Shown here: positions 11,039 through 64,000 of the stretch, in pieces | Numbering within the stretch: the stretch's first letter is position 1 | How the letters are laid out: every line of letters starts with the position of its first letter | Assembly (NCBI RefSeq): GCF_000150955.2 | Contig: NW_002238036.1 | Coordinates: 229,346 to 293,345 of the forward strand | Length of the DNA stretch: 64,000 nucleotides | Direction: 5' to 3' | From: Phaeodactylum tricornutum CCAP 1055/1 | Taxonomy: Eukaryota; Bacillariophyta; Bacillariophyceae; Surirellales; Neidiaceae | Made by a program: the position numbers and the translations under genes | Notes under the pieces: generated by a model | What the model was told of the DNA's origin: nothing | Databases searched by the model: none | The model's input: the letters and a program-made list of their open reading frames with translations, nothing else

Positions 11039-11614
11039 AGAAATGGTCACAACCAAAACGGAGCAGCGCGTTGTCAACTTCGTACCTGACGGTGACAACA
11101 AGCGCAATGCTCAGATTTAGTGATGTATAACTACATATACAGATTCTACTTTATAGTCTGAAACCAGTTCCCTACGATACCAATTGTTTGTTTGCACTGC
11201 GGCCATTCAAACGATACTGATACCTACCAACCGACAATCGAACAGCGACTTGATGAACAGAAGCCATGAAGGGGTTTCTTCGTTCATCACGTATGTCCGT
11301 TTCAGAGCAAAGTGAAAATCTCTATAATGCCATACCTTACCCATTCAGCATGGGTAGTGATGCTGTAACACTATGTGTTCCGTGTATGGGATGCTTTCCA
11401 GTTTGTTGCTCTTCCTTGACTGACAGGGAGATCTTTCGTCTCTGTTACTTTTAACTCTTGAGTATTACTCTACCAGTACTTTTAAGAGCCAGATCGACGG
11501 TGAAAATGCGATTGTAACTTCAGAAATGTAGTAGACATTGTGGATAATACTTATATTTGACAGTCAATAATATTTCTGTCGCAGCAAAACCAGCTCTCTA
11601 ATCCGAAGCCTCTG
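11039..11614. other. Intergenic, left flank of the retrotransposon
   Basis: AT-rich relative to the genes. Before the insertion this was directly upstream of the JmjC-like gene now at 18429, so it probably contains that gene's original promoter. A 62-codon frame at 11266-11454 has no support. Confidence 0.5.
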
Positions 11615-11995
11615 TGTCGCAAGGAACAGACAAGAGTACGGGACTCAGAATATATGTTTAGCATACTCGATGCAAGAGTACACAATATATTAGGAAAGGA
11701 TACAAACTATGTAAGTATCCAGTGAGATTGAATATTTACAAGATCAGAACCGCAGGAATGAAGAGGTCTGGTCCCACGGGTTTGAGAGGTTCTTACCCAA
11801 AGGAGAATAGTCAAATAAAGTTCGTATAATCTCAGAAGTTAGTAAAGTAGTAAGCTTACAGCTCTAGATTGGTTGACTGATAGCGAGTGCAGTTGTGGAC
11901 CCGAGATAGGCCACGACGAATCCGCGACCCGGTACGACCCACCGAAACAACACCGTGAACGAGAGAGTCTTGTGAGAAGTCGTCCGTTCACGACA
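11615..11995 (+). repeat. 5' LTR of the copia element
   Basis: 381 bp, TGTCGC...CGACA, aligned base for base with 17994-18374 at a constant offset of 6,379 with a single difference. An ATG at 11873 in the LTR is in frame with gag, but the gag start at 12023 outside the LTR is more likely. Confidence 0.97.
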
Positions 11996-12025
11996 AGTTA
12001 TCGAGCCCAACGCATCCGACTGATG
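11996..12025 (+). promoter_or_regulatory. Possible primer-binding site for half-tRNA priming
   Basis: The bases directly after the 5' LTR, read as reverse complement, contain CAGTCGG then GCGTTGGGCTC. These resemble the D-arm and 5' side of the anticodon arm of a Met-type tRNA, not a tRNA 3' end. Copia-type elements are known to prime from a tRNA cleaved in the anticodon loop. The match is judged by eye and is imperfect. Confidence 0.4.
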
Positions 12026-13474
12026 GAGACCGAAGCTACAGCAGGTGGTGAGGTCTTCAAAGGTACATTTGCTGTGATGAGTGGTACTGTCGCACCAAAA
12101 CACGGTGGCCTGGTGGACTCACATGCTTGGACAGGAGGTGAACCTAGTCCTGATTGGAGCAAGGTTCTAATTGATGAACCAATGACACCTTACTGTTACC
12201 ATGCGCAGGGATTTGAGAAAGGCCTCAAGATCTACACTTCGCGAACAGGGCAGGGTGAGAAAAGTGCAAAGTTGTTTGGTTGCTCTAGCAAGGACTACTC
12301 ACTTTTGGCTTTCGCAACCGATGCTCAAGAGCATATGGAGACGCATGGGATGGATACGGTGTTCTACATGAAGGACCCGTCAACGTCGGAAATGAAAAAC
12401 TTATTCGACTTCCATTCTCGTTTTACGATCTCGCAAACCGAAGCTTGGATTGACCTTGCAAGCAAGGATGGAACTTTTGACAAGTACGACAAGAAAAACC
12501 TGAAGGATTCCTGTACGTGGCTCATGAACCACCTTGACTCGGATTTGACTGCAAGTATCCGTCCTTTTGTTCGTGGTGGGACCCTTACTGGGCCAACTGT
12601 CTGGATGCGCATTGTTGGAGAAGTGCAGTCGGATTCTATTCGACGCCTGAAGAAAGTGCAAGAAAAGTTGGAGACCCTCAAGTTGGCTTCTTTCAAGGGC
12701 GAAAATGTTCGTGAGTTTGCACAGTCGTTCCTAGACTTGTGTATTGAATTGGAAAACGCGAAACGACTTCCCGAAGATGTTCTACTTACCGTGGTTGAAG
12801 CTTTGTCGAAGTGTACTGTCGAAGAATTTCGGATCGACTTTATGAGTAAGCGATCCGCTGTCGAACGGTTCATGCGAGAGACAGCCGGAAAGGATTCTGC
12901 TACAATTGCGAGGATGTCGGACCGTCTTACCTACCGTGATTTGCTCGACGAAGCTAAGTCGAAGTACACGTCGCTTCTCGATAGTGGATTATGGGGGCCA
13001 GCTGGTGGGTCAGGTGACAAGTCTGGAGCCCCTGCTGGGTTTCTCACAAAAGCCGAAGTCAATGTCCTTATCCAAAAGGCCGTGTCAAGTGCCAAGAGTG
13101 GAGACAAATCTGGTATCACCTGCTACAATTGCAAGGAAGTTGGGCATTACTCTCGAGATTGCAAGAACAAGCCTGCTGATGGGAACGGAAACAGTTCAAA
13201 ACCCAAGAAATCCAAGGCAAGCTGGCGCACCGTTGCTCCAAAGTCTGGCGAATCCGAAACCAAGACCGAAAATAAACTTGAGTGGCACTGGTGTGCTCAC
13301 TGCAAGGAATGGCGTGTTGGACACGGCACCGCAACGCACGACCACAATTTCAAACCGAAAGAAGCAAGCAACGGAAAGAAAGGACCCCAAGCTAATCTCG
13401 CCGCAACTGGTGAATTGTTGGGTGGTGGCACTCTTTCAATGAGCGCCGGAGCCGGATTGTACGAGGCATGGTGA
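12023..13474 (+). CDS. Gag of the copia element
   Basis: About 483 residues from METEATAGG. A helical capsid-like middle part (FHSRFTISQTEAWIDLASKD..., SFKGENVREFAQSFLDLC) is followed by a CCHC zinc knuckle CYNCKEVGHYSRDC starting at 13121 and a second Cys/His cluster (WCAHCKEW) near 13290. It packages the element RNA in virus-like particles. It ends at TGA 13472-13474, followed by CTG ATG in the same frame as pol. Confidence 0.9.
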   Translation: METEATAGGEVFKGTFAVMSGTVAPKHGGLVDSHAWTGGEPSPDWSKVLIDEPMTPYCYHAQGFEKGLKIYTSRTGQGEKSAKLFGCSSKDYSLLAFATDAQEHMETHGMDTVFYMKDPSTSEMKNLFDFHSRFTISQTEAWIDLASKDGTFDKYDKKNLKDSCTWLMNHLDSDLTASIRPFVRGGTLTGPTVWMRIVGEVQSDSIRRLKKVQEKLETLKLASFKGENVREFAQSFLDLCIELENAKRLPEDVLLTVVEALSKCTVEEFRIDFMSKRSAVERFMRETAGKDSATIARMSDRLTYRDLLDEAKSKYTSLLDSGLWGPAGGSGDKSGAPAGFLTKAEVNVLIQKAVSSAKSGDKSGITCYNCKEVGHYSRDCKNKPADGNGNSSKPKKSKASWRTVAPKSGESETKTENKLEWHWCAHCKEWRVGHGTATHDHNFKPKEASNGKKGPQANLAATGELLGGGTLSMSAGAGLYEAW

Positions 13475-13477
13475 CTG

Positions 13478-16045
13478 ATGGGGTGGTGGTACCCTCTCCT
13501 ACAGTGGATTGTGGACCATCTACACCCACCCCCTTTCTTTTACTGGTTGATTGTTGTTTATACCTGGATAGGATGGCAACAGAGGAATGGTGAGTCCTGG
13601 TGCAAAGCGTCGCGTCGAAAGAAATTTTCTCGATCGTACGTACCGTTTGTTCGCCTTGGTGCCTACCCGACTCGTTTTGTCCTGCTTTCGAGCGTGATGT
13701 TACCAATGTCGGTTGTTTCTATGGTTCTCGGAGGGAGAGCCGAGTCTTTCGGAAGTCACATTGTGGCCCGATGGTACTCAGCCTGGTATGGAGGAGAGCG
13801 CGGTGAACAGCGAGCCGTTCGCGTTCGTGTACGGCGTCGTCGCCCCAATCTCAATTACCATGGCACTTGGAAAATTCGTCCGCCTCCAACCCCCTTCTTT
13901 GCGACTGAAGTTCCCGTCATTCCTAAATTTTCGTGGGGTGCCGCCTTCGCTGCAGAGGGAGAGGAGAGACTGTGTCGTGAGCAAACGAGTGCGAGCGAAG
14001 TCGACGAACAGTATGCCCAACCGATGGCGTTTCTGGGCAGTGCTTTGGACAGTACTTACTGGTTTTCGAGAGGGAGCCGGGACGAGTTGCTGCAAACTTT
14101 TGCCGTCATATGGGATACCGGAGCAACCCTGACCGTCACCCCGCATCGCGATGATTTTGTCGAGTTTGAAAGTTACGACAATGGCGGTCGACACGTACTG
14201 AAAGGTCTCGCGAAAGGCCTCACTATTGGGGGAGCCGGAGTGGTTGCTTGGAGTGTGGTCGCTGACAACGGTGACGTACTGACGATTCGTACGCCTGCTT
14301 ACTTGGTACCTGAAGCTGGGCAGCGTCTACTGAGCCCGCAATCTTTTCTTCAGAGTCTGGTAAGTCAGGATCTTTCGGGTTCGCGACCTTCAATTTCAAT
14401 TGGACCTAAGGCGTTAACCGTTGAGATGGGGGCGCAATCCAAATTAACGGTTCCATATGATGAGGGCAATAATCTACCAACCAGTCAGATGTTTTCGGTT
14501 GAGTCATCGGAAGAATCTACTGTGGAGTTGAATATGTGTGTGACCGACGAGGCAAATCAGAACCTAAGTGCGAGTCAGAAAGAGTTGTTGCGCTGGCATT
14601 ATCGTTTCGGTCATCGGAATTTCCAAGCCGTGCAAACAGTGTTGAAGTCGGGAGTCCTCGGACGGACCCCACTTATCATGGGAGCTTCTAAGTGTGAGCA
14701 TCCTAAGTGTGCGTCGTGCCAATATGGAAAAGGTCGACGCAGGGCGACTGGCGCTTCTAGTACAAAGTCAGTGCCGGCAAAAGAGGGAGCACTTAAGTCT
14801 AGTGACCTTTTTCCGGGCCAGCGTGTCTCTATGGATCATTTCAAGGTGACTCACAAGGGAAGGCTGTACGAATCGAAAGGAAAATCATTGGCGGACACTA
14901 TGTATTCCGGTGGATTGATATTTGTCGATCATGCAAGCAGTTATGTGCACGTTGAACTTTGTGTGAACTTTACGGCTGGTGAGACTCTCCGGGCAAAGGC
15001 GTCGTTTGAACGCGCAATGCTAGATCATGGGATCACGGTTCAGAGCTACCAGACGGACAATGGAGTTTTCGCAGCGAAGGAATTTATGTTAGAAATTCAC
15101 AACATGCAACAGAGTATTGGTTTCAGCGGCGTCGGCGCACATCATCAGAATGGGGTTGCCGAGCGATCAATTGGAACTATAATGGCAATGGCAAGGACGC
15201 TTATGCTGCACGCGGCTATTCGGTGGCCGGATGTGAGTGACGCCTGCTATTGGCCTATGGCAGTTGACTATGCAGTCTATCAGTACAATCATGGTCCTAA
15301 GTTGGTGACAACGGCGGCTCCAATAGATTTATTATTGAAGACTATGGTTCCCCGACACCGGTTGCATGATTTGCATGTTTGGGGATGCCCAGCATATGTT
15401 TTGGACCCGAAGTTGCAAGACGGACAGAAAATTCCAAAGTGGAGCCCCCGTTCGAGACGAGGAGTTTTTCTTGGGCTGTCGCGTAAGCATTCGTCTACAG
15501 TACCACTGATATTGAATTGCGAGACACTTACCATTTCTCCGCAATTTCATGTTGTTTTTGACAACTGGTTCTCGAGCGTACTTTCTATGTCTGCCGAGGA
15601 GCCGTTTGACCCTAATGTATGGACCGAAATGTTTGTCGGTTCCCGATACGAGTACTTTTTCGACGCGGACGATCCGGTTGAACTTGACGCAGAGTGGTTA
15701 AGCGAGCGTGAAAAGGAAGTCCGAAATATTCGCGACCGAGAGGACCGGGTGCGACCACAGCTAGATTTGCGAGATGGCGTGCCAAAGGGACCCAAAGTTG
15801 GTACTCACACAACCAATCTATCATTCAAGAGGGAGAACAGAGCTACGGATATGCCGTTGCAGTTGCCTCCAACTACTCCAATTGCCGTGTTGCCCACTAC
15901 TGGAACTGAGGAAGATCAATTTCCCATTTCTGATCCGTCGGTGCCAGAAAGTCCTAGCAGTAACAAGCCTCCGAGTATTTTGTCGCCTTCTAAAATTTGT
16001 CGCGAGACACCGCGCAGCCCACCTCCACCTGAACCGGAACCTTGA
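13478..16045 (+). CDS. Pol part 1 of the copia element: protease and integrase
   Basis: In the same frame as gag, separated by one TGA. The first ~180 codons are hydrophobic then Arg-rich and unassigned. Aspartic protease motif WDTGATLTV at 14111 onward. Integrase zinc site H-x-H-C-C (HYRFGHRNF ... CEHPKCASCQYGK), then catalytic region with SMDHFKV, YQTDNGVF and HHQNGVAERS as the D,D,E residues. Ends at TGA 16043-16045 after a Pro-rich linker. The ATG at 13478 is only the first Met after the stop; expression from gag by readthrough is possible. Confidence 0.88.
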   Translation: MGWWYPLLQWIVDHLHPPPFFYWLIVVYTWIGWQQRNGESWCKASRRKKFSRSYVPFVRLGAYPTRFVLLSSVMLPMSVVSMVLGGRAESFGSHIVARWYSAWYGGERGEQRAVRVRVRRRRPNLNYHGTWKIRPPPTPFFATEVPVIPKFSWGAAFAAEGEERLCREQTSASEVDEQYAQPMAFLGSALDSTYWFSRGSRDELLQTFAVIWDTGATLTVTPHRDDFVEFESYDNGGRHVLKGLAKGLTIGGAGVVAWSVVADNGDVLTIRTPAYLVPEAGQRLLSPQSFLQSLVSQDLSGSRPSISIGPKALTVEMGAQSKLTVPYDEGNNLPTSQMFSVESSEESTVELNMCVTDEANQNLSASQKELLRWHYRFGHRNFQAVQTVLKSGVLGRTPLIMGASKCEHPKCASCQYGKGRRRATGASSTKSVPAKEGALKSSDLFPGQRVSMDHFKVTHKGRLYESKGKSLADTMYSGGLIFVDHASSYVHVELCVNFTAGETLRAKASFERAMLDHGITVQSYQTDNGVFAAKEFMLEIHNMQQSIGFSGVGAHHQNGVAERSIGTIMAMARTLMLHAAIRWPDVSDACYWPMAVDYAVYQYNHGPKLVTTAAPIDLLLKTMVPRHRLHDLHVWGCPAYVLDPKLQDGQKIPKWSPRSRRGVFLGLSRKHSSTVPLILNCETLTISPQFHVVFDNWFSSVLSMSAEEPFDPNVWTEMFVGSRYEYFFDADDPVELDAEWLSEREKEVRNIRDREDRVRPQLDLRDGVPKGPKVGTHTTNLSFKRENRATDMPLQLPPTTPIAVLPTTGTEEDQFPISDPSVPESPSSNKPPSILSPSKICRETPRSPPPPEPEP

Positions 16046-17926
16046 GTGCGTTTCCAGGATCCTCCTCCCAAGCAAGAGTCGCGTCACCGTCGGCCTCCTC
16101 GTCGTTTCGGCTACGACGGCAGTCAGGGACATGGATACCTCAGTAAATTTTCGAAACCGGATACTGGTGAATTGTTGTGTTTTATTGGTGCAGCTTGCAA
16201 CCTGATCCGCCATCAACAGAGCTCGTCGGAAGCGGATTTGGCCTACCGGACCTTTTGCGAGAGCGATTTCGAGACGGAGACGTTCAATTTTCGCGATCCC
16301 TTAGCATTTGCCGCTTCGACGAAACGCCACGACCCCGACACCCCAAATTATCACGAAGCAATGTGCGGTCCCGACAGCGAAGGCTATCAGGAGGCTATGG
16401 CAAAAGAAATCAAGGCGTTAGAACGGCATGGTACGTGGACACTAGTTCCGAAGAGCTCGATTCCCAAAGGGAGACGCGCCTTACCTTCGACTTGGGCGTT
16501 CAAGAAGAAACGATTTCCGGATGGGATGATGCGAAAGCTCAAGGCCCGGTTTTGTGTTCGAGGAGACCAACAAGTGGAAGGAGTCGACTATTTTGAGTCG
16601 TACGCACCTGTGGTTTCTTGGACGACGGTGCGGTTGTTGTTGTCGTTGTCGATTATTTTCGGGTTGGAAACGCGTCAAGTAGACTACTCGAACGCGTTCG
16701 CACAGGCCAAATTAGACGAAGAAATTTACGTGCAGCTGCCGCGTGGTTTTCAGAGCCCAGATCCAAACGCAGAAACGGTCATGAAGTTGAACCGGAGTCT
16801 GTACGGGTTGGTGCAAGCTCCGCTGAAGTTTTTCGAGCATCTGAAATCGCACCTGGAGAAGCGTGGTTTTGTATCGACCGAAATTGACCCGTGCTTGTTC
16901 ATCCATAAAGATATGGTCTGTCTGGTGTACGTCGACGATTGCCTGTTCTTTGCCCGTGACGGAACGAAGATCGAAACGATGATTGCGAGTTTGCAGCAAG
17001 ACTTCGAACTCACTGTTGAAGGAGACGTGTCGGCATTTCTTGGGATCCAGTTCGAACGCGACACTAAAGCGGGTACGATTAAATTGACTCAGCACGGACT
17101 GATAGATCGTGTGATTAAGGCAACGGGTCTGGAAGAGTGCAATTCTGACCGTTCGCCAGCTGCGACGGATGCGCTAGGGAAAGATGTCGAAGGCGAGCCG
17201 ATGACCGAGGACTGGAGTTACGCGTCCGTCGTTGGCATGCTGCTCTACCTTGCGTCGAATTCTCGACCAGAGATTGCCTTTGCCGTCCATCAGTGCGCTA
17301 GGTTTACTCATGCGCCAAAGAAGTCGCATGCTCAAGCTGTGAAGCGAATTTGTCGCTATCTAAAAGGAACGAATCGCGACGGACTGATTTTGAAGCCAAC
17401 CGGCGAATTAGCAATTGATTGTTACGTCGACGCCGACTTTGCTGGGTTGTGGAAGCGTGAGGATGATCAAGATCCTATGTGTGCAAAGTCAAGGACTGGT
17501 TTTGTTTTTACTATTGCCGGTTGTCCGCTTATTTGGGTTTCTAAGATGCAGACGGAAATTGCGCTTTCGACAATGGAGAGCGAATACGTGGCCCTATCCC
17601 AAGCAATGCGAGAGTTGATTCCGCTTCGTACACTGGTAGAAGTGGTTCATAAAGGTATGGGATTGGCTGAGCAGAAGGCAGTTACTCGGGCGTATTCGAA
17701 AGTTTTTGAAGACAATAATGGTGCTTTGACTTTGGCAAATGTTCCGCGAATGACGCCTCGAAGTCGGCATTACGCAGTCAAATATCATTTCTTTCGAGAG
17801 TACGTACGCAAGGGTGATATTCAGATCCTCCCAATTGATACCAAGGTGCAGTTAGCAGACTGCATGACAAAGGGCCTGCCATGGGAGACTTTTTCGGCGC
17901 ATCGAAAGTTGCTCTGTGGATGGTAG
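16046..17926 (+). CDS. Pol part 2 of the copia element: reverse transcriptase and RNase H
   Basis: Continues the same frame after the TGA at 16043; no ATG start is needed if the stop is read through. RT motifs: STWAFKKKRFPDG, VDYFESYAPVVSW, DYSNAFAQAKLDEEIYV, and the catalytic YVDD at 16928-16939. RNase H: CYVDADFAG, then IALSTMESEYVALSQA and EDNNGALTLA. All catalytic motifs are intact, so only the stop codon separates this from protease-integrase. Ends TAG 17924-17926. Confidence 0.9.
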   Translation: MRFQDPPPKQESRHRRPPRRFGYDGSQGHGYLSKFSKPDTGELLCFIGAACNLIRHQQSSSEADLAYRTFCESDFETETFNFRDPLAFAASTKRHDPDTPNYHEAMCGPDSEGYQEAMAKEIKALERHGTWTLVPKSSIPKGRRALPSTWAFKKKRFPDGMMRKLKARFCVRGDQQVEGVDYFESYAPVVSWTTVRLLLSLSIIFGLETRQVDYSNAFAQAKLDEEIYVQLPRGFQSPDPNAETVMKLNRSLYGLVQAPLKFFEHLKSHLEKRGFVSTEIDPCLFIHKDMVCLVYVDDCLFFARDGTKIETMIASLQQDFELTVEGDVSAFLGIQFERDTKAGTIKLTQHGLIDRVIKATGLEECNSDRSPAATDALGKDVEGEPMTEDWSYASVVGMLLYLASNSRPEIAFAVHQCARFTHAPKKSHAQAVKRICRYLKGTNRDGLILKPTGELAIDCYVDADFAGLWKREDDQDPMCAKSRTGFVFTIAGCPLIWVSKMQTEIALSTMESEYVALSQAMRELIPLRTLVEVVHKGMGLAEQKAVTRAYSKVFEDNNGALTLANVPRMTPRSRHYAVKYHFFREYVRKGDIQILPIDTKVQLADCMTKGLPWETFSAHRKLLCGW

Positions 17927-17984
17927 ACCAACACTTTAGGAGACAAGAGCCTGGCCTGTTTGAACTCTTTGGTACATCTCATAT

Positions 17985-17993
17985 GAAAGGGAG
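17985..17993 (+). promoter_or_regulatory. Polypurine tract of the copia element
   Basis: GAAAGGGAG lies directly before the 3' LTR, where plus-strand DNA synthesis is primed in LTR elements. Confidence 0.75.
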
Positions 17994-18374
17994 TGTCGCA
18001 AGGAACAGACAAGAGTACGGGACTCAGAATATATGTTTAGCATACTCGATGCAAGAGTACACAATATATTAGGAAAGGATACAAACTATGTAAGTATCCA
18101 GTGAGATTGAATATTTACAAGATCAGAACCGCAGGAATGAAGAGGTCTGGTCCCACGGGTTTGAGAGGTTCTTACCCAAAGGAGAATAGTCAAATAAAGT
18201 TCGTATAATCTCAGAAGTTAGTAAAGTAGTAAGCTTACAGCTCTAGATTGGTTGACTGATAGCGAGTGCAGTTGTGGACCCGAGATAGGCCACGACGAAT
18301 CCGCGACCTGGTACGACCCACCGAAACAACACCGTGAACGAGAGAGTCTTGTGAGAAGTCGTCCGTTCACGACA
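17994..18374 (+). repeat. 3' LTR of the copia element
   Basis: 381 bp, 380 identical to the 5' LTR. It ends 54 bp before the first ATG of the downstream JmjC-like gene and is co-oriented with it, so the LTR promoter could drive that gene. A frame beginning with the ATG at 18252 inside the LTR runs without a stop into the gene. Confidence 0.97.
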
Positions 18375-48113: not shown

Positions 48114-48874
48114 CGTTCGGTTGAAAAGCTGAAGTTCTTAAATTGCGTTGGAATATGGGCAAGGTGAGAGAACAATAACAATAACAACACCAAAAGCCCT
48201 GTCTGCCAAAGACAGAACCTTTCAAAGTGTGCTTTACGTACCTGGGGGAATAGCTTTTGTACGCGCTCGCGCGGAATTGGAACGAGAAGAAGCGATGGAA
48301 AAAAGTTCGAATTCTTTCGGGTTGGCGAAGCAATGGATTCAGTCGTTCATTGGCACCACAGCCGCAAAAAGGTCCGCAAGGAGAAAAAAAGATCCTACGG
48401 TTCGCATCGGGAACCATTAAAGTGGTGGGGCTCGCTTTCCAAGATTCGATTTTCTCCCTGAAGGAGAATATGACGTGGCGGACATAGTGCGGAGACATCC
48501 TCTTTGTAGTAATTCAACATGCTGAATTAAGAGGAAATAAATATGACGTGGCGGACACAGTGCGGAGACATCCTCTTTGTAGTAATTCAACATGCTGAAT
48601 TAAGAGGAAATACCTACCAGTAGTAAATTGGACGCTTTCATAACAATCTGAGATGCACTTGACTGCGCGAGACATCGGAGGTCATTGACAGATTCTACAA
48701 TCTGACTTTGGAAAGTTGAATATTGATTTCAAAATTCATTTGGTGAAAACGATCAGGAGCTTTCTCTTTCCCCGGCAATGTCACAATACTGCCACCCGAT
48801 GCCTCTTCTGGTCGTTCCTTGATTGCAACTCCCTCCAGTCTCTAAGCCCACTATTGCAGAGGCAGTCGAGGAAA
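48114..48874. promoter_or_regulatory. Divergent upstream region with tandem TGACGT-bearing repeat
   Basis: Shared by the dehydrogenase gene (leftward) and the plastid lipocalin-like gene (rightward). A 90-codon frame at 48148-48420 (+) has no domain support. The 73-bp tandem repeat is listed separately. Confidence 0.5.
48468..48613 (+). repeat. Two tandem copies of a 73-bp unit
   Basis: Units 48468-48540 and 48541-48613 are almost identical (one T/C difference in GACATAG versus GACACAG, plus the last base). Each holds TGACGTGGCGGA, a bZIP/CRE-type ACGT core, and an inverted repeat TAATTCA-ACATGC-TGAATTA nested within CCTCTT...AAGAGG. Confidence 0.92.
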
Positions 48875-52008: not shown

Positions 52009-54075
52009 CTAGGAGGGCTGCTCCTGAGCTCGGGCAGCCGCTGCCCTTATTGCCGCTATACTGGCCACCCCGGAAGATTCCTCTACACTGCCTTTAGGCA
52101 ATGCTTTCAAGTCTAACATAGAATTGACGTGCAATTCGTTAGAGTCTATTTTACCATCGTCGCCACGGTTTGAGTTTGACACCCTTGATAGGGTGCTGGT
52201 TGCACCGCCATCGGCTGAAGGGGTACCATACGAGACAACGACCTGCCGTCCGTTCTCTTTCGGCTTATGAAGCATTTTTGGAACAAAGATAAGCCCGATT
52301 ATCGCCAGAGTAATCACAAAGACCAACAGAATTCGAAGTAGGTAGTACACGGGAGGATTGTCGACTGTCAGAAGCAACACTGGCAAGCCGACAAGACTCA
52401 CTTGCATCATTCCCGCTACCACTAAAGCAATGTACTTCGACTCACTAAATTCGCTCTGAATACTCCGGGCCTTGTAAGCTTGAATGTTCGCAAACAAGAG
52501 AGCTCCCAGGTTGACAGCAACCAGCGCTGACACAAACGGTACAGAGCGCTGGCCTTCCCTAGTCATGCAGGTCCCATAGCTTGATATGACGCGGTTCCAA
52601 GGATCAGTTCCGAGATCGTCTCGTCGTACGTATTCCAACGGCGCAACAACCGTCCAGCAAATCAGTATGATCAAATTGGCTACCATCAGAAGACAGAACG
52701 GTAAAATGACGTCCCGCACCGTCACAACTTGCTTGTTGAACCTCTGAGCTGACTCCACCACCCGATTGATTCGCCACAGCTTGCTAAAGAGCGCCGAGAA
52801 AACGGTGGAAAAGCCTATAGAGAGCAACCAAGGGGTGGCGATACAAGCTGCCGAACAGGCACCAACACTGTAATTCTCGTTGTCGAAGCCAATTGGAATT
52901 ATCGAGGAACTCATAATTAGTGCACCAACAGCAACCACAATGAGAAAAATGGGCTGAGAAGCCCGAACTATGTATGTCTTCCGTTTCATCAACACCCATG
53001 CCATGACGACAATCGAAAGCGAAGCAAGGATGCAGAATAAGACGTAGCCGAGGATGCGGTAATTTCCAACAAAGTTCTGGTCGACAGTCAGTGTGGGTAG
53101 AATCAATGGTATTCGCAGCAGCAAAGACAAATTGGTCCCGAAAACCAGGTCTGAGCTTTTTCTGTGCGCAGAAGGTTTTCCACCCGATTCCCGACGTAGA
53201 TTTAAGAGGGTGTCGATGCACACCTCCCCAGATTGGTACGGTAGTTGTCCTACTAAACCATCAGCGAAGCCGCGTTCCAATAGGGATATTTGGTTCGATC
53301 CAGCGTCGGCTATAACGTGCGTGAGGTCTCGGTGACTATCAACGTATTTTATCCAAAGGTCTTCGTACTGCATAACAGTTCCGTAGAGCGGAATGATTGC
53401 TCCAAGGTCCGGATTTGCCACCTTCAAATCCCTCATATTCTGAAGTGTTAGCGTTATGTTGCCCGCTTCTTCGTACAAAATGGAGTCGGGAGGTTCTGTC
53501 CAGGTAGAGCCTGATAGTGCGGATCGTATACCGCGAACTCGCAGCTCCAAATTTGGCGTTTGGATGGAAACCAGTGCGAACATCCCACCGGTGGGTTGAA
53601 GTTGCAACAAAACCTTTCCGAGCTGCTCACCAAACGCGACGTTGTCGGTTCCAACGAATGCTTGACGATCCGAGTTAGCCGCATCGCTGTCAAAACAAAT
53701 AACCGACATTCCCGAGTCAAGCGCTCTTCGAATTGGCTCCTTCACGGACTCCTCGTTTACAACCGAAATGGCAAGTCCGTCGAGCGCCTCAGGGTCGCCG
53801 GCGAGCCTTTGATCTATCATTCGGTCAATCCATTCTACTTGGGCGGCACCCGTCGGCTCTTCCTGCTCTGGCCCAATCCATACGCACACTACGTTTCCGT
53901 AGACATCCGCTCGAGCTTCACAACCTGTCCGGACGGGGTCGAAGAAAGGATTATCTAGGCTCTTCGGCAGAATGCCGAATCGAAAAGTCTCATTAGCAGC
54001 GCTGACGCATGGTGGTGAAGGCGCAAACAAAAGCAGACAACGGAAAACTCCAAATACTGCTACATAATTCTTCAT
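52009..54075 (-). CDS. Receptor paralog 2: periplasmic-binding ectodomain plus class C (GABA-B-like) 7TM
   Basis: 688 residues with an N-terminal signal peptide (FGVFRCLLLFAPSPPCVSA). Same architecture as the gene at 8639: FRFGILPKSLDNPFFDPVRTG, MSVICFDSDAANSDRQAFVG, TDNVAFGEQLGKVLLQLQ in the ectodomain, and ASQPIFLIVVAVGALIMSSS, FSALFSKLWRINRV and ILPFCLLMVANLIILICWTV in the membrane part. Seven TM segments between ~340 and ~620. The cytoplasmic tail is shorter than in paralog 1. The left end of the Mutator-like element lies 78 bp upstream of its start. Confidence 0.86.
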   Translation of the reverse strand: MKNYVAVFGVFRCLLLFAPSPPCVSAANETFRFGILPKSLDNPFFDPVRTGCEARADVYGNVVCVWIGPEQEEPTGAAQVEWIDRMIDQRLAGDPEALDGLAISVVNEESVKEPIRRALDSGMSVICFDSDAANSDRQAFVGTDNVAFGEQLGKVLLQLQPTGGMFALVSIQTPNLELRVRGIRSALSGSTWTEPPDSILYEEAGNITLTLQNMRDLKVANPDLGAIIPLYGTVMQYEDLWIKYVDSHRDLTHVIADAGSNQISLLERGFADGLVGQLPYQSGEVCIDTLLNLRRESGGKPSAHRKSSDLVFGTNLSLLLRIPLILPTLTVDQNFVGNYRILGYVLFCILASLSIVVMAWVLMKRKTYIVRASQPIFLIVVAVGALIMSSSIIPIGFDNENYSVGACSAACIATPWLLSIGFSTVFSALFSKLWRINRVVESAQRFNKQVVTVRDVILPFCLLMVANLIILICWTVVAPLEYVRRDDLGTDPWNRVISSYGTCMTREGQRSVPFVSALVAVNLGALLFANIQAYKARSIQSEFSESKYIALVVAGMMQVSLVGLPVLLLTVDNPPVYYLLRILLVFVITLAIIGLIFVPKMLHKPKENGRQVVVSYGTPSADGGATSTLSRVSNSNRGDDGKIDSNELHVNSMLDLKALPKGSVEESSGVASIAAIRAAAARAQEQPS

Positions 54076-54152
54076 TGTTCTTCACCGCAAGAGTTCTTTT
54101 CTAATGAAGAGGGAAAAAACGCACAAAAAAACCGGTACGGTTATACGGAAAT

Positions 54153-54206
54153 GGGGATGGCTAGTACGCACCCCTTTTCGTGAATAAAACCCACACCCAT
54201 GACTCT
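54153..54206 (+). repeat. Left terminal inverted repeat of the Mutator-like element
   Basis: GGGGATGGCTAGTACGCACC... to ...GACTCT, reverse complement of 59468-59521 with a single T/C difference (CCATGACT versus CCACGACT). Confidence 0.95.
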
Positions 54207-54576
54207 CTGCTTCGTTGTCAGGCCTAATACGATTAATGTAACTGTCGAAGTGCGAGTCGAATAATATAAAAACGGCTGTGAGGCCTTTTGCAATTTACTG
54301 TCAAACGAGATTTGCCGAGCCGGTTGCGTCGACGGCTTCAAAATTTGGCTCTTTCGACAATGAAAATTTAGGATTGACAGTGAAGATTGAATGCTTTCGT
54401 ACCATTCAGGAGGGATGTCAACTGGTGTATTGTACTTCCAGGTCCATTTGGACTCCGAAAGTCCTCCAATGTTGTAGTTTGTTTTTCAATCGTACCCAAG
54501 TAGCCATGGAACATTTAAGCTGCCCAAGCGATATGTGTTCGAGTTGATGGTGTTGAACACGTCAACGCTTGACTGA

Positions 54577-55260
54577 ATGGTGTGTATGCTTCAAGAACTG
54601 GATAGGCTTTCTCTCATGTTGCTGGTGTCTGGTGTCGCATCCCACACACTTTGTTGCTTAAATGCTTCAATGCTCTTGGTCTCGAAGTGGGAACGCAAAC
54701 GCTCCCACAAAAAGTCCAAGTCCACCAAAACGCTCCTCATGGATCTCTTTCCCAACAATACCAACATTGAAGGCGCTACCATTATCAACGCGTGTTACGG
54801 AGGCACCGCCGCCCTGCTCAACGCTTTTTGTGGGTTGTTTTTGACGAATGGGACGGCCACTACGCCATCGTCGTCGCCGCCAATATTGGTGCCTACGCAC
54901 GCGGCCCCGCCCGACCCACTAGTGGGGCTGGCGCCGTTGCCATACTTGTGGGACGCGATGCGCCCTTGTCCTTTGACCCATGGACCCAAGCCACACACCG
55001 CCAATGTTTGGGGCTTTTACAAACCCAATCATACTGTGAAATACCCAACCGTGGATGGCGCACTCATGCTTCAAGCTCTAGAAGACGTCTACACTCGCTT
55101 TCCCGAAAAAGTCACCCTCCGAGACGGCGCCACGCACAGTGGAATACAATTCAAGGCCAAATCACCCAATTACCTTGTCTTTCACGCCCCTTACAACAAA
55201 CTCATGCAAAACCTATTCCCACATTCCCCTCAGCGCGACATTTACCGTCGCTACTGGCAG
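54577..55260 (+). pseudogene. HMG-CoA synthase fragment, frameshifted
   Basis: Frame 1 gives KSKSTKTLLMDLFPNNTNIEG and ATIINACYGGTAALLNAF, the HMG-CoA synthase catalytic Cys block (Cys codon at 54793). Near 54835 the reading shifts to another frame giving FDEWDGHYAIVVAANIGAYA and ARPTSGAGAVAILVG, then shifts back near 54985 to give NVWGFYKPNHTVKYPTVDGA and FHAPYNKLMQNLFPH. All are consecutive parts of HMG-CoA synthase (mevalonate pathway). With at least two frameshifts and no intact N- or C-terminus it is a pseudogene. It sits inside the Mutator-like element. Confidence 0.85.
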
Positions 55261-56280
55261 CCCCCTTGCTCCACCCATTGTCCTGCGGGAAGCCAAACGG
55301 GATTCCGTCTTGCAGCCTGTGACAGGTAAACTGCAGGTTCTGGCCAGCACGCGGGAAGGCACACACCAAAGCTTGGCGTAGAATTGCCTTTGTCCTTACG
55401 GGAACTGCTGCCGGTTTGCCCAAATTAGACAACGAAAGTTCCGAGGGAAACTCCATGTGGGCTGCGGAGGAAGAGCACAAGGCGCTAGCTGATGCATTCA
55501 GCAAGCAGAGAACTGCCCGTATTCTGACCAGCATTCCTCAGGCAATTCCGTTTGATTGTCCTGTGAAGCTTTTTGATGCCTTGCTTTGTTCAGACAAAGA
55601 GAAAACACAAAGCAAGAATGAAGAGAGGCGAGACACTGTAATGGCCATGACGGATTGGACAATCCGTTTGCTGGACATAATCTGGAGAGACTAACCGAGT
55701 CGCGAACTTTCCGACAACGACAAAGGCGCCTTTGCACAACTGGTTTCTCGTGCACGCAAAACAGAATCAGAAGGAAAAGACCCTACGAGTTTGATTGCAA
55801 ATTCTTGTTCCGCGTAATTGTCCTGGGCAACGCTCAGCTTGCTCAGTTAGCCGGTTGACAAGGTCCCAACATGCAAAGCAATGCCGCCTGTTCCGGTACG
55901 ACATACTGGTTTCTGGACGTGCTCAACAAGTAGTGGTTGTGGCCGGGGATAATGCTGTGGGAGAAACGCTGCTGCCTTGGTTAGGATCCGGATTCCGCGC
56001 TTTGTGCCACTACAGCTGTTACTGTGGAAGACGCCGCTTTGCCGTTCAATAAGCGTCGATTCGGGCATGTTGCTGCTGCTGGCGGTATGGGCTTGGTCCT
56101 CAAAACAGAGCTGAGTATGGTAAAAGACTATTGCCGTATCTGTCCTTCAGCCATCAACAAAGGTGACAATGAAAGCAAAGCCGGCGTTGACACCAAAGGC
56201 TTGGAAATGGCCAATACGTTGGGGCTACAAGTACACCATAGTGATTTTGCATTGGAAGGTCTGAGGACTCTAGTATAAGG
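55261..56280 (+). pseudogene. Further degenerate coding fragments inside the Mutator-like element
   Basis: Open frames in shifting phases: 55395-55694 (GTAAGLPKLDNESSEGN..., EEEHKALADAFSKQR) and 55915-56278 (VVVVAGDNAVGETLLPWLGSG, then EDAALPFNKRRFGHVAAAGG). The last block resembles the PFDxxRxGFV...G.G region of beta-ketoacyl synthases, but this is tentative. No intact frame exceeds ~100 codons. These may belong to captured genes other than HMG-CoA synthase. Confidence 0.4.
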
Positions 56281-56409
56281 CATGATGGTTCTGACAGAGG
56301 AAGAGTGCCAAGAATGGCTCACAATTATAATGAGGGATGCTACAGTCTTTAACATTTTCCTATAGAATGCTTCTCATGATGACAAATAGGTCTCACTATC
56401 ATTACTTGT

Positions 56410-59313
56410 TCAGCCACCAAAATTTTGCCTTTGTTTCTTTTTCGGTCTGTCTCTTAGATTCTTGCTCTTTGAAGGACTGTAGCTTGGCCTGAGCCTTTGG
56501 CCTACTGGTTCTTTTCCAATAGCTGGGCCAATACTGTAATCTACCATACCTGACCCTTCTGCAACGTGTTTCTGTAGCAATTCCAAAGTTTCCTGCATTC
56601 CTTTTGTCATTATGTCAGCAGCTTTTGAATTGAATTTGGCAAGTTTTGAGATTTCCTCGTAAAAATGAAGATTGTTTGTGTATGGACTTTTACCCGATTT
56701 TGAGAGATTTGAATCAATTTCTTCAACCTGCATGACAGTTACATCTCCAACATCCATTTCACTATCCAATTGAGTTTCAATAGCATACCCCTGGGAAAGG
56801 CTCGTCAACTCTTGCACCATACCGCTTGCTGCAGGAACTGTTTCCTGTTCAGTGCTTTTATGCACATAACATCCAGGTTGTCGTGAAAAAGAATCAGCCC
56901 ATCTGCTGTACTTCTGGATAATGGTGGGCTCGCTTGGAAGTGATCTCTTAAAATAGTTGTACTCTCTCTCACCCTTTCCAACTTCCCACTGATTTGTGTT
57001 TTCGAAATGTGGCCCTGGCCGCTCCTTCTTATACAATTCCTCTAACTGGTCCGACAGATCATGATATCCAGGTCGATGCAGGTAAACATCCCAAATTTTT
57101 GTCCATCTCACAGAAACGTCTGTTGATTGTGGTGGTCGGTTAAGTACTTTGTAGATGTGAGCACATGGAGAAGCTTGTCGTTGGAACTTGCTGCAACTAC
57201 ATTCCAGATAGAGTTCACCTTCAATTTCCGTAATTTTTACGATGCGGGTGCGCTCAAACTGTGGAATCATAAATTGGCAAAAGTTGCTGTCGTTGAAATC
57301 CTGGTAGGTCTCGCTTGGAATTTGGTACCATGCTCGCTTTACCCAAAATTCTTTTGGACCCGGGCAAAAGAGGTCATATTTTTTGGCTGCATTGAATTCA
57401 TGGGATATGGTTTCCTGTATGCAATCTACTAGGTCGGATATATTGGTGTAGTTTGCTGCCTTTGTCTTCTTTGTAGCATTGAGGTTATGAACTGCTTTTT
57501 GTTGCCTCTTCACTGTTCGCAATTGAGTCCCTTCGTTTATTGCCCGTGTTGCTTTTGGCACCGAAAAGTTTGGCTTGACCCCATCACCCCGTCGTTTTAG
57601 AGCACTGTTCTCTGCTTCTCCGTAGGAACTTGCGGACGTGTTGAATGCCCTCACGTTCAGAAAATGGTATCGAGCCCAGCGTTGCTCGTGCGGAAACAGA
57701 GAGGACGTCAAAAATGCATTTATCTGCGAAACAAGGGCACAACCCATTCCGCCCAAATTTGTATCAAGTGCCTCCGGAGATTTCAGCCAGTCAATCAAAA
57801 GCCCAGTTGACAAATTGTACTCCTCTTGCGTCTCAATTTTTGTCATCCAGCTTTCTATCCACTTCAGGACCACATGGAATAGAATTTTTGCTTTTGTTCC
57901 ACAGTTTCCAGTTTGTGCTTTCATAAGACTGCCGCGATAGAGTAGATGCCAATGGCATAGTTTGTGCCGACACAAGCTATACCAAGTAGGTATTGCATCT
58001 AAAAAAGTACCATACTCTCGCGGGTCTCCATCAGTAATCAATAGACGCATTCTGTTCAGCCCCTGTTCAGGTAAGAGCTGTGGAATGCATCTTGTCCACA
58101 CCCATCGGAAGGCCCAACGAGATTGTTGCGGTAGAAAGGCCCAAAGTGCTGTAAACGTGTTTTGATTTGATGTCTTTCCCGAAAACAAAAACAGCGGCCG
58201 TTTTGCATTGTTGGTACCTTCTGTCACATCTGCTACCATGATCTCGGAATAGCGAGCAAAGATTCTTCTACTCTCGTTGTCGGTCCAGGCCACTCCTAAA
58301 AGCATTTTTTCGTTGCCCTTCAACTTGAACGCCCTCCGCGTCCTATCTATATAGTCATCAAGCTCTCCCCTTGGATCAATAGCATCTAGCACCTTTTCAT
58401 TGAGCACTTCTTGTTGGGCAATTCCTCCAGAGATACTCCGTGTACTGGTGTGTAGGTGCCGACGTCCAGTTTTTGCCCTCTGCTTGTAAACAGTGAATAA
58501 AGGGGAATCTGGTTCATCATATATGGCACAGAAGCTGACATCCGGGGTGCTCTCAAGATAAGCTAGAAGTTGATCCGCTTGCGTCGTGAAATTATCATTT
58601 GCACCAAATTTGTTCCGTTCACCTTTTTCAGCTTGCATCCGTATATTTTTTAGAGATGAACCTGACAAGATATCTCCAGTTCGTATGTTCAGCAGCCGCC
58701 CAATCACGCTTGGTGGGGCATTACTTTTTGCTGCATCAAGTGCTATTTTTACTTCACCACCGTCAATATAGGAAATACTCTTTTTTACCTCACATGGATC
58801 CATTGGTAAATGATGACAGTGAAACCTGCAGCTGCCTTTTACACCTCCAAAAAGACACCATCGTTTATGTTCTGTCATCCAAAAAATACTGAACCGAAAA
58901 GGACACTCTTTTCCCTTTTGTGGACGTATGAAGGAAACGTTGCGATGTTTTATAGCCACATTGGATAGACTGTTTTGTTTTTTTTTGTACCTATCCGCAT
59001 CATGGGATCTACTTCTAAAGCATTCAAAACGTAGTCGCCTCTTTTTTGCATCCCATCCTCGTTCGACTAAGGGAAACTTTCCATTTGCAGCAGCAATCTT
59101 AATGGCCTTGGCTAGACTATTTCGGCAATTTGAGGTAGAGTCGTATCCTTCCGGAAACATAAAACACTCTCCAATGCGTTTACAATCTAGACCAATGTAA
59201 TCGCATAGATTAACTTCCTGCCCTTCTTTCGATGGAAAAGGGATGCACTCAGTCATCCACTCCTTCTTGCTGGCAATGTTGTTGTCAAGCAATTGCTTCA
59301 AAGAGCAATCCAT
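56410..59313 (-). CDS. MULE-type transposase with SWIM zinc finger
   Basis: 967 residues from MDCSLKQLL, the first ATG; the frame opens with a TTG at 59337. N-terminal Cys/His-rich DNA-binding region (CFRSRSHDADRYKKKQ, GKECPFRFSIFW, FHCHHLP; FAR1/MULE-like). MULE DDE core ~370-560: SEIMVADVTEGTNNAKRP, then RLLITDGDPREYGTFLDAIP and LCRHKLCHWHLLYRG. SWIM finger ~715-735: YLECSCSKFQRQASPCAHIY (CxCx(n)CxH). No stop or frameshift, so it may be active. It lies 154 bp from the right inverted repeat, typical of an autonomous Mutator-like element. A host-domesticated copy is less likely given the flanking TIRs. Confidence 0.88.
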   Translation of the reverse strand: MDCSLKQLLDNNIASKKEWMTECIPFPSKEGQEVNLCDYIGLDCKRIGECFMFPEGYDSTSNCRNSLAKAIKIAAANGKFPLVERGWDAKKRRLRFECFRSRSHDADRYKKKQNSLSNVAIKHRNVSFIRPQKGKECPFRFSIFWMTEHKRWCLFGGVKGSCRFHCHHLPMDPCEVKKSISYIDGGEVKIALDAAKSNAPPSVIGRLLNIRTGDILSGSSLKNIRMQAEKGERNKFGANDNFTTQADQLLAYLESTPDVSFCAIYDEPDSPLFTVYKQRAKTGRRHLHTSTRSISGGIAQQEVLNEKVLDAIDPRGELDDYIDRTRRAFKLKGNEKMLLGVAWTDNESRRIFARYSEIMVADVTEGTNNAKRPLFLFSGKTSNQNTFTALWAFLPQQSRWAFRWVWTRCIPQLLPEQGLNRMRLLITDGDPREYGTFLDAIPTWYSLCRHKLCHWHLLYRGSLMKAQTGNCGTKAKILFHVVLKWIESWMTKIETQEEYNLSTGLLIDWLKSPEALDTNLGGMGCALVSQINAFLTSSLFPHEQRWARYHFLNVRAFNTSASSYGEAENSALKRRGDGVKPNFSVPKATRAINEGTQLRTVKRQQKAVHNLNATKKTKAANYTNISDLVDCIQETISHEFNAAKKYDLFCPGPKEFWVKRAWYQIPSETYQDFNDSNFCQFMIPQFERTRIVKITEIEGELYLECSCSKFQRQASPCAHIYKVLNRPPQSTDVSVRWTKIWDVYLHRPGYHDLSDQLEELYKKERPGPHFENTNQWEVGKGEREYNYFKRSLPSEPTIIQKYSRWADSFSRQPGCYVHKSTEQETVPAASGMVQELTSLSQGYAIETQLDSEMDVGDVTVMQVEEIDSNLSKSGKSPYTNNLHFYEEISKLAKFNSKAADIMTKGMQETLELLQKHVAEGSGMVDYSIGPAIGKEPVGQRLRPSYSPSKSKNLRDRPKKKQRQNFGG

Positions 59314-59467
59314 GTTGCAATAGAAGGGCACCTGCAACGCAATTTTTCATTCAACTATGGTGACCTATATCATTGTCAACATTCTGTTTGGGGGCTTTGC
59401 CGGCTTGGCATTGCTCTTTTGAATCCCAATAGGCCTCAAGCAATGGCCTCAAGCAACCTCTCTTTAC

Positions 59468-59521
59468 AGAGTCGTGGGTGTGGGTTTTATTCACGAAAAG
59501 GGGTGCGTACTAGCCATCCCC
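59468..59521 (-). repeat. Right terminal inverted repeat of the Mutator-like element
   Basis: Reverse complement of 54153-54206, 53 of 54 positions matching. Confidence 0.95.
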
Positions 59522-59624: not shown

Positions 59625-59909
59625 AGTGATTTTGATATTGGAACTGCCCATTTCGAAAAAGAAATAAATATAGAATGACTATCTGTGACTTTGATCCATA
59701 AACGACAATAAATCAAACACGATTTACTTGCAGTTACATTTCGATGGCTGCAGTCAAATCACATAGGTGGTCGGGGAGTGATTTTGACATCGGAACTACC
59801 CATTTCCTAAAGGGAATAAAAATAGAATGGCTGACTGTGACCTGAATACATAAACAACAACAAATCAAACACAATCTACTTTCAGTTGTATTTGGATGGT
59901 TGCAGTCAA
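59625..59909 (+). repeat. Two diverged direct repeats of 133 bp
   Basis: 59625-59757 and 59777-59909 align end to end (AGTGATTTTGA...GCAGTCAA) with many substitutions but no net length change. They lie between the Mutator-like element and the RT relic. They could be old solo or tandem remnants of a transposon end. Confidence 0.85.
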
Positions 59910-60670: not shown

Positions 60671-61501
60671 CACTGTCTATGGAAGTGTGAGTCAAGGTGG
60701 GAATTGTGGTGGGATTGTTTCCTTTATGTCGGCCTTATTGTACAACCCGATGTATACGCGGTATGATCAGAGTTGTCCCGTATCGGAAGCCACGGGAGTT
60801 GAACTCAAGGATGGAGAATAGGACACAGTCCCACAAACTACAAGGAGAGTGACAAGCAGGATGGTTACTCACCAAGTGGTTCTGTGTGGGATTTATACCT
60901 AGGAGATGTTACTCTATGTGGGAGTAAGATTATCTGTCACATGGTAAGAGGTCTTGCATTTGTATGAAGAGACCAATTCTCATGGACTAGTAGTAGAATA
61001 ATCTTCCTCTCATTGTTTTAGAAATTCATTGATCCAAATATTGCATTGCATAGGTCCTTGTATCCGCTGTCTAACCCATGGGGAGCATCGTAAGCAAGTT
61101 GAGTTTTACAGTCCCTAAGTGGCCTTCCTCGGAGTCACCGGTGTCGAACCCCCTTGGAGTCTTCAGGGTTTGTCGGCAGGGTTGCTTCGTGACTACGGGT
61201 TGCTCCGGTCAAGTGAGGTAGAAACACCAATAGGCTTGAGGACCTCAGCCCTGATTCCGGTTGGAACGGACTTACTACCCGGCGTAAAGTAGTATGGGGG
61301 GGGGGGGGGGGCTAATCAAACCCTCGTCAGTCCCCGAGGACACTGCCTACAGAGGTAGAAGTGAGTGTACCAGTGCTAGCTTCGTTCACTGGTGTAGGGT
61401 CATTTTAACGAAGTCCGCTATAAGTATACAGCAAAGGACCTGAACACATAAGTAGTAATCTTTCAAGAACTCCTTTATTTCTCTTGGCTTCTCAGGACAC
61501 C
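60671..61501. other. Transposon-derived or unassigned sequence with a 16-G run
   Basis: No gene. It contains a G16 homopolymer at 61296-61311, which may be unstable or uncertain in length. The stretch directly before the gag-like frame could be the 5' LTR or leader of the right-end retroelement, but a matching second LTR is not in the window. Confidence 0.4.
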
Positions 61502-64000
61502 ATGGTCCCTGCCACTCAGCAAATGACAGGTGCAGCAGTCTACGCCCACCTTTTGGATAACATTCTTCTACTTCCTCAAGGGCATCCTATCCGTCTCAGT
61601 TTTGAGCAGCAAGGATATGATTCGGCTGATGACCTCATGTGTATTTTTGAGAACGAACTTGAATCTCTTGAATACATTCCTCCTGCCCTCCCTGACGATT
61701 TCGAAAATCCGTCAAGCATTCCCCTACTCATGGCACACCGACAAGTCATACGTCATTTCCTTCGTTGGCAAGCGTCCCTAAAACGACAAAAAGGGACCCC
61801 TTTGAAGAACTCTGAGCTTGCTGCACTCAACAATGAAGATTTTGTTATGTACCGTCGCGCAGCTCTTGGCCAAGTCTCGACGGCTACCACACCTGCCGCT
61901 TCTTTGTCGACCATTCAGGGTCCTATGGGGAAGACTCGTTCAGCTGTCAAGGATTTTAATCATGGAATAAAACGTGACAAAATCCACTACCCAGTGCTCA
62001 AGGATGACCGCTACTGGGACAATTTTTATCGCTTGTTTGTTGTTACTGCCGTAACTCATAATGTCGAAAAAGTTCTGGACCCGACCTACACTCCTACTGA
62101 CCCTTTGGAGAAGTCCCTTTTCGAAGAGCAAAACAAGTTTGTATATTCCGCTCTAGAGCATACGCTCCAGACCAACATGGGTAAAAACATTGTCCGTGAG
62201 CACAGTTTCGATTTCAATGCTCAGGAAGTTTTCCATAAGGTTGTGAAACACTATACTGAGTCAGCTAGTGCAAAGATCAGTTCATCTACCACCTTGGGAT
62301 ACCTTACAACGGCAAAGTATGGATCATCATGGACAGGTACTGCGGTTTATTCTCCACTGGAAAAACCATCTGCGCATTTACAACGACACTGTTCCGGCTG
62401 GTGAGCAACTTCCCCAACAACTATGCCTTAGTCTTTTGGAAGATGCTGTCCATGATGTCCCTGAACTTTGCCAGGTGAAAATCACGGCAACTCTAGACTT
62501 AGCCAAGGGAGGCAATCCTATTAGCTACAACGGTTATCTCAGCCTATTACTTGCATTAGCATCTCTATACAACAATGATAATAATTTATTTAACTCTCGT
62601 AACAGCAAGAACAAGCGAAGCGTGTATACTACTGATCTAGCTTATCATCCGACTGATTTTAACAGTGAACCTGACATAGATTATGATATAGATGTATCAC
62701 CAACTACCATCTATGAGGCCAATGCTCACAACAGGAACAACTGCGCGCCTGAAACGGAACTACTCGCTCACCCCACCAATCAAGTCAGCCGCATGAGTGA
62801 TGGTGACATCCATAAAGTACTTGCTGCGTCCCGCGATGTACCTGTTTACGATCCGAAAAATGATAACCCAAATCAATGCAATCCAATGTCCTGCAATACC
62901 AAGTCTCTTGATACAATGTCAATGAGACTACTGCAGCCCTTGTTGATTGCGGCGCAAATGGTGGACTTGCTGGTGGGGATGTCATTATCCTGCGTTAAAA
63001 CTGGCCGTTCTGCCAATATGACAGGTATCAATGACCACACCTTACCCAATCTGGACATTGTTACTGCTGCTGGTTGCGTCAAATCTCAAAATGGACCCAT
63101 TTTTCTCATTATGAATCAGTACGCACATTTGGGAAAAGGGAAAACGATCCATTCCAGTGCTCAAAGCATCACGTCACCCGAAATGCCCAGGACTATGAAA
63201 CACTTCGACCGTACTTAGGTTAGGTTTCTGCCGAAACCGTTTGAAAAACCCTCATGGTCACCACGCAGCATGCCCGAGAAGTCTACAATGTCCCGTTACG
63301 CAAGCATTTCAAGTCGCGTTTCCCAGCTTTAAATGTGCATTGTCGCAAAAAACCCGTCGCCACTGATACAATCTGGTCTGACACACCCACTGTGGACAAT
63401 GGTGCCAAGTTTGCAAGTCTCTTGTCACTGATGTGTATCCGATAAAAACCGATAAAGAATTTGTCAACACCCTCGAAGATCACATTCGACACCATGGAGC
63501 AATGGATAAACTGATCAGCGATCGAGCTCAGGTTGAAATCAGCAAAAAGCTCACTGACATTACACGGGCTTATAACATTGACCAATGGCAGAGCAAACCC
63601 AACCATCAGCATCAAAATTTTGCCAAACGTTGTATTGCCACTATTGAAGCAAATACCAACAAAATTCTCAATTGTATCGGGGCCCCTGATTCCACTTGGC
63701 TCCTTTGCGTCACGTACGTTTGTTACGTTTTTAACCATTTGGCGCATGAGTCCCTCGAGAACGGTACACCCCTCGAGATCTTAACTGGTTCCACACCTGA
63801 TATCAGTGTTCTCCTTCAGTTTCATTTTTGGGAACCCATTTTTTATTGCCTCGAAGATGCGACATTTCCTTCTGATGGTACCAAACAACGAGGACGTTTT
63901 GTTGGAATCGCGGATTCCGTGGGAGATGCACTTACTTATAAGAGCTCCTCACTGACGGCACCAACAAAATTCTGTACCATTCAAGTGTTCGTTCTGCAAC
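61502..64000 (+). pseudogene. Decayed LTR retroelement (gag, protease and integrase remnants), runs off the window
   Basis: Gag-like frame from MVPATQQMTG at 61502 to about 62330 (FEQQGYDSADDLMCIFENEL, YPVLKDDRYWDNFYRLFVVT), then a shift to the frame at 62335-63218 (RFILHWKNHLRIYNDTVPAG, DIVTAAGCVKSQNGPIFLIM). A protease-like CGANGGLAGGDV is in a third frame near 62945-62985. Integrase remnants are in shifted frames from ~63250 (AREVYNVPLRKHFKSRFPAL, then GAMDKLISDRAQVEISKKLT and IEANTNKILNCIGAPDSTWL). At least three frameshifts mean it is non-functional. RT would lie beyond the right edge. Confidence 0.75.

Follow-up and report, generated by a model that had tools for sequence, protein, structure and literature searches.

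The 64-kb window analysed here (64,000 nucleotides (nt) of contig NW_002238036.1 of Phaeodactylum tricornutum) contains a unit that is bounded by terminal inverted repeats (TIRs) and encloses the gene of a Mutator-like element (MULE) transposase together with pieces of two enzyme genes. The unit comprises 5,369 bp including its arms, and its interior is 5,261 nt long. The first-pass annotation had described 54-bp TIRs enclosing the unit, and this description was confirmed: the arms differ from perfect complementarity at a single position. The 24-nt arm core was found only at the two arm sites in the window, even when up to three mismatches were tolerated (expected number 0.00, from 100 shuffles). 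Some MULE families lack TIRs; here, the 54-nt arms supply this feature. The published range of TIR length in MULEs is 14–500 bp (PMC6446971; this and the other papers cited are used in excerpt). From the left, the arm is followed by the HMG-CoA synthase piece, the ketoacyl-synthase piece and the 3′ end of the transposase gene (Table 1). Both enzyme pieces have the same orientation, and the transposase gene is located on the other strand. Part of the left subterminal stretch was read in frame 3 and gave nothing above the cut-off in Pfam.

The transposase gene had been called an intact MULE/SWIM gene, and the data agree. The open frame runs for 978 codons from stop to stop, with 967 amino acids from the first Met at 59313, while no open run exceeded 199 codons in 200 plain shuffles of this DNA. 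Pfam matches comprise MULE (1.5e-6, 29 bits with a cut-off of 27.6), ZSWIM1-3 RNaseH-like (4.2e-6) and SWIM (6.3e-5, 22.9 bits with a cut-off of 19.6). Both a MULE-type DDE transposase and a zinc-finger domain such as SWIM, which is usual in MULEs and not universal, are present. The motifs VADVT (D362), LLITDGD (D428), LCHWH (CHWH 453–456), YGEAEN (E566/E568) and CSC-CAH (SWIM C705–H719) were picked out by eye. By analogy with MULE/FAR1 proteins, we take their D/D/E, C/H and SWIM residues to be catalytic and metal-binding. Comparison with the PDB pointed to no relative up to E 1. The open frame and the motifs make autonomy plausible, and the earlier designation of the element as autonomous can be retained in this weaker form.

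Table 1. Features of the inverted-repeat unit (positions in the window).
Feature	Position	Strand	Basis or remark
Left terminal inverted repeat	54153..54206	+	54 nt; 53/54 complementary to right arm
Left subterminal stretch	54207..54680	none	No recognised coding homology
HMG-CoA synthase fragment, approximately residues 77–267 of the 450-residue chain 2f82	54681..55248	+	Frameshift-aware alignment
Short VLTGTAAGLP reading, resembling a motif upstream of related ketoacyl synthases	55392..55421	+	Post hoc observation
Ketoacyl-synthase domain fragment, type I polyketide-synthase kind	55763..56110	+	Alignment to L002; tblastn
MULE/SWIM transposase frame	56410..59346	-	Pfam MULE, ZSWIM1-3 RNaseH-like and SWIM at or above curated cut-offs
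Right terminal inverted repeat	59468..59521	-	54 nt; 53/54 complementary to left arm

Enzyme-gene pieces between the arms

Between the arms, a piece of an HMG-CoA synthase gene that includes the Cys block had been noted, and it was recovered both by alignment and in searches. The frameshift-aware alignment to chain 2f82, presumably a plant enzyme, contains 90 identical residues among 183 aligned, three frameshifts, small in-frame gaps and no stops; its score of 385 compares with 26–36 for eight plain shuffles. Single frames matched Pfam with E-values of 2.7e-12, 1.6e-12 and 2.7e-10, and an HMG-CoA synthase in the PDB with 2.5e-20. Frames joined by hand, with E-values that are flattering because the frames were chosen by eye, gave 1.7e-30 for the Pfam N-terminal domain (three frames), 1.1e-48 to 1.9e-46 for four eukaryotic-type chains, 1.5e-12 to 5e-7 for other HMG-CoA synthases and one HMG-CoA synthase-like protein, and 2e-5 to 9e-4 for CurD/PksG. 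The organism origins of the matched chains are as we presume them to be. NACYGG and VFHAPYNK still have their Cys and His, respectively, and the Glu of SET/TET is replaced by Gln; we take all three residues to have catalytic roles. Owing to this replacement, the piece is not expected to work even with whole frames. The largest insertion in the alignment does not exceed five codons, so the stretch 54681–55248 is free of introns. Judged by its sequence, this stretch represents the central part of an HMG-CoA synthase of eukaryotic type. Nine candidates for the piece in viral_contigs yielded no confirmed match. A bacterial beta-branching cassette, which combines an HMG synthase with a ketoacyl synthase, was also considered and rejected, since the eukaryotic-type chains match far better than either bacterial or polyketide-type chains, including CurD/PksG.

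The suspicion that a ketoacyl-synthase-like piece was present as well proved to be justified. Aligned to L002, a protein from a Micromonosporaceae contig, this piece shows 57 identical residues out of 114, with one stop and two frameshifts. The frameshift-aware score was 248, compared with 31–42 for six plain shuffles, which were aligned to a shorter stretch of L002 than the real piece. In tblastn, a first hand-joined reading gave an E-value of 1e-4 and a second, extended at the start, 2e-14; with the frames again chosen by eye, these values are likewise flattering. Both readings matched the same Nonomuraea polyketide-synthase open reading frame (ORF), which encodes ketoacyl-synthase, acyltransferase, ketoreductase, dehydratase and carrier domains. 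Relatives are encoded in 115 of 134 candidate stretches of genome_contigs, and the titles of the best 80 of these 115 are all bacterial or archaeal. When the ketoacyl-synthase alignment was used to search viral_contigs, six candidates were obtained and none was confirmed.

The stretch between the two pieces has no tblastn match at E ≤ 0.01 in 81 loci of related ketoacyl synthases. It includes the short reading VLTGTAAGLP. In 23 of 74 loci (those holding the searched active-site pattern), the corresponding motif, TG.A.GLP, precedes the active site by 234–241 residues, compared with about 155 codons in this element; it was absent from all 20000 plain shuffles of 55249–55762. This motif, noticed after the fact, hints that the polyketide-synthase piece starts shortly past the end of the HMG-CoA synthase piece. 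Given the differing motif distance and the lack of a tblastn match, a third captured gene between the two pieces is possible.

Both pieces are decayed and lie in the same orientation, as might be found if native genes of the locus had decayed in place and the transposon had inserted in or around them. However, both are enclosed by the arms, and they come from unrelated genes, each represented by its middle part only. An HMG-CoA synthase match was found near related ketoacyl synthases in none of the 81 loci (tblastn E ≤ 0.01, up to about 6 kb per side, prokaryotes only), which makes the two genes unlike one native neighbourhood. The left flank is the beginning of a receptor-like gene on the opposite strand, with the left end of the element 78 nt upstream of its likely start codon (54075), and three frames of the right flank examined with Pfam gave no match. 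A native origin of the pieces is thus very improbable. The two fragments are unrelated, truncated and decayed parts of enzyme genes.

Decay, borders and proposed origin

The 5,369-bp unit is probably a MULE-type DNA transposon that carries fragments captured from two genes and was recently active. The contrast in decay argues for this reading. Six disabling lesions (five frameshifts and one stop) were counted in the enzyme pieces, over 297 aligned codons, whereas the 967 codons of the transposase have none. With equal rates, the chance of all six landing in the enzyme pieces is 1.7e-4. The counts exclude in-frame gaps and were made on alignments to distant relatives, where a frameshift beside a gap (e.g., at 54998) could be misplaced. 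This contrast means that the pieces decayed while selection kept the transposase, or that they were already decayed at capture. The single mismatch between the arms fits a recent insertion. The third-position GC-content of the HMG-CoA synthase piece (0.588) is within the range of 17 long frames of the window, taken as host genes (0.499–0.693), and that of the transposase (0.409) is outside it. The donors of the captured pieces were presumably the host's own genes.

According to the proposed mechanism, the transposase would bind the terminal repeats and move the unit by cut and paste. A break or a stalled fork inside the element may have been repaired from HMG-CoA synthase and polyketide-synthase gene templates, so that the fragments were copied in by gap filling with template switching. 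The fragments would then lack a coding function and decay by drift, and the transposase frame would be preserved by selection for transposition. The left end may at most promote sense transcription of the fragments. Published capture models likewise invoke gap filling and fork switching, as for animal Pack-TIRs (PMC8277862), and the element alone leaves this known mechanism unchanged.

A similar repair could have occurred in place: the MULE would have been inserted first, the pieces copied later into a gap by transposition-independent gap filling, and no movement would have followed. In animals, captures that are present as one copy mostly arose in this way (PMC8277862). The lesion contrast speaks for selection on the transposase after the decay of the pieces, or for pieces that were decayed beforehand, and capture without later movement is considered unlikely, if still worth weighing. 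It overlaps with the transposon reading, from which it differs only in post-capture movement, and the probabilities assigned to the two do not sum to one.

A number of observations weigh against a captured-fragment transposon, and the borders provide the first of them. The 25 nt beyond each border were compared and share no word of 5–12 nt, i.e., no target-site duplication (TSD) of the 8–11 bp usual for MULEs (PMC6446971) is present at the borders. As this duplication is absent, we can only infer that all 5.4 kb were inserted together. The transposase is assigned to the MULEs, and the entire unit is named only MULE-type. Diatom MULEs are tabulated as 'No TSD and not indicated' (PMC6446971, Table 1), so the missing duplication weakens the assumption of one inserted unit and does not overturn it. 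Its absence may be normal for diatom MULEs.

The absence of a duplication is also expected for recombined ends. The left arm could be that of another family member, itself non-autonomous and either carrying the gene pieces or free of them. Deletion or recombination between neighbouring copies would then have fused this arm to the copy with the transposase, and the unit would never have moved as a whole. The location of the enzyme pieces on one side of the transposase agrees with such a composite locus. However, a search with the outer 22 nt for an internal relic of an arm found none: apart from the arms themselves, the best match has eight mismatches, and 27 of 50 shuffles gave an equal or better match. 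The same table entry for diatom MULEs (PMC6446971) also deprives the missing duplication of part of its meaning here. A composite origin is distinctly unlikely.

The remaining points against a recently active transposon with captured host-gene pieces concern copy number, relatives and composition. The element is present as a single copy within the window, and the outer 22 nt of its arm have no exact match in viral_contigs. No relatives of the transposase were found in viral_contigs, and none of 10 candidate stretches in genome_contigs was confirmed. An AlphaFold model of residues 292–728, made without an alignment, has a mean pLDDT of 36.7 and is useless for judging the fold. The arm mismatch of 1/54 sets only a loose bound on divergence (95% interval 0.05–9.9%). 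The third-position GC-content of the ketoacyl-synthase piece (0.482) is slightly below the host range, and that of a Copia element in the window (0.509) is inside it, so such a value is no proof of host origin. Codon-preference log odds did not discriminate (0.180 in frame; 0.181 and 0.052 for shifted-frame controls) and were rejected as evidence, the controls being imperfect for a piece that is itself frameshifted. Finally, Pfam is blind to the ketoacyl-synthase piece, even with an E limit of 10, and the PDB match is weak (3-oxoacyl-ACP synthase 2, E 0.02). The assignment of this piece is therefore based on tblastn, the relatives in genome_contigs and the frameshift-aware alignment.

A more specific proposal, that a still-active MULE of a diatom, i.e., of a stramenopile, acquired parts of two metabolic genes unrelated to each other, later transposed with them and kept its transposase, is put forward tentatively, as the less probable case. 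If true, gene shuffling by autonomous MULEs would not be peculiar to land plants and red algae.

Related elements and neighbouring features

Capture inside an autonomous MULE had been regarded as unusual in the first-pass annotation. This view needs qualification, since transposase-bearing MULEs with captured pieces are described in plants (PMC2528002, PMC13317346), and the present element fits this known kind. The ULP-carrying MULEs (KI-MULE and its relatives in Arabidopsis, melon, rice and grapevine) likewise possess a captured piece of a host gene beside the transposase. Both orientations of the piece occur, with some families having it reverse to the transposase, and TIR-bearing elements are among the carriers (PMC2528002, PMC13317346). 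The element described here differs in its host lineage and in carrying broken pieces of HMG-CoA synthase and ketoacyl synthase instead of ULP1; nine frames examined with Pfam gave no match to the ULP1 protease domain. In addition, it has TIRs, whereas KI-MULEs do not.

The comparison with plant Pack-MULEs, also proposed earlier, holds in so far as fragments of unrelated genes lie between MULE-type TIRs in both cases. Pack-MULEs have lost the transposase, according to the relevant passages of PMC6446971, whereas the 978-codon frame is open here. With its transposase retained, the element is no strict Pack-MULE, and the name fits loosely.

Among algal elements, group 37, MULE-Diatoms (Dupeyron et al. 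2019), shares with the present unit the presumed host group, SWIM, one ORF and the entry 'No TSD and not indicated'. Compared by its table row only, this group differs in the TIR length of 123–124 bp, and no inserts are tabulated for it (PMC6446971). MULE-Cc of the Jittery sub-group (group 36, Rhodophyta) is likewise algal, has SWIM and is listed with 'various inserts, potentially host derived', but its TIRs of 192 and 500 bp are unlike the 54-nt arms (PMC6446971). The barley MULE Abermu is similar in being likely autonomous, with TIRs, a reverse ORF and host capture suspected by its authors; it differs in its plant host and in lacking enzyme-gene fragments (PMC9168764). A Pyrenophora hAT element with a histone H3-like gene is also full-length, likely autonomous, non-plant and endowed with a captured gene. 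It belongs to another superfamily, and its captured gene was retained as an ORF and multiplied (PMC3538342). Giant DNA transposons with extra genes occur in brown algae, where some families were likened to Pack-MULEs (PMC12477816).

MULEs are already known in diatoms, with two families in Phaeodactylum and TpMuDR1 in Thalassiosira (PMC2806351). In Phaeodactylum, 152 MuDR annotations were reported (PMC5859163). Cut-and-paste elements were called rare in most sequenced diatom genomes, and an expansion of MULEs was described in Nitzschia inconspicua (PMC8329260). A description of host-gene capture by a diatom MULE was not found among the open-access matches listed (titles and some passages, with subscription literature mostly outside), and its absence from print is not claimed. 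If further copies of the element exist, gene-fragment capture by transposase-bearing MULEs would be extended to diatoms. Such copies would also turn the element into a compact system: its donor genes, the junctions left by capture and its subsequent movement could all be traced within a single small genome.

The neighbourhood of the unit has several features of its own. The receptor-like gene on its left (52009–54081, minus strand) and a second gene at 8318–11038 (plus strand) are paralogous, both joining a bacterial-type periplasmic-binding domain, Peripla_BP_4, to a class C receptor domain, 7tm_3. About 100 nt beyond the right arm, a 152-nt unit is repeated 1.9 times (59625–59909, repeats approximately 81–82% alike). 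Another repeat, of a 73-nt unit present twice with 98% matches, is located between two long frames at 48467–48612. A PPR protein is also encoded in the window and, together with the receptor-like genes and a Copia element, gives it a eukaryotic appearance. Two overlapping long plus-strand frames at 61424–63218 lie in different registers, have no Pfam match and are possibly a frameshifted or degraded element. The Copia-type long terminal repeat retrotransposon at 11614–18292 (RVT_2, 3.9e-48) has a 300-nt terminal direct repeat with 100% identity and is probably a very recent insertion.

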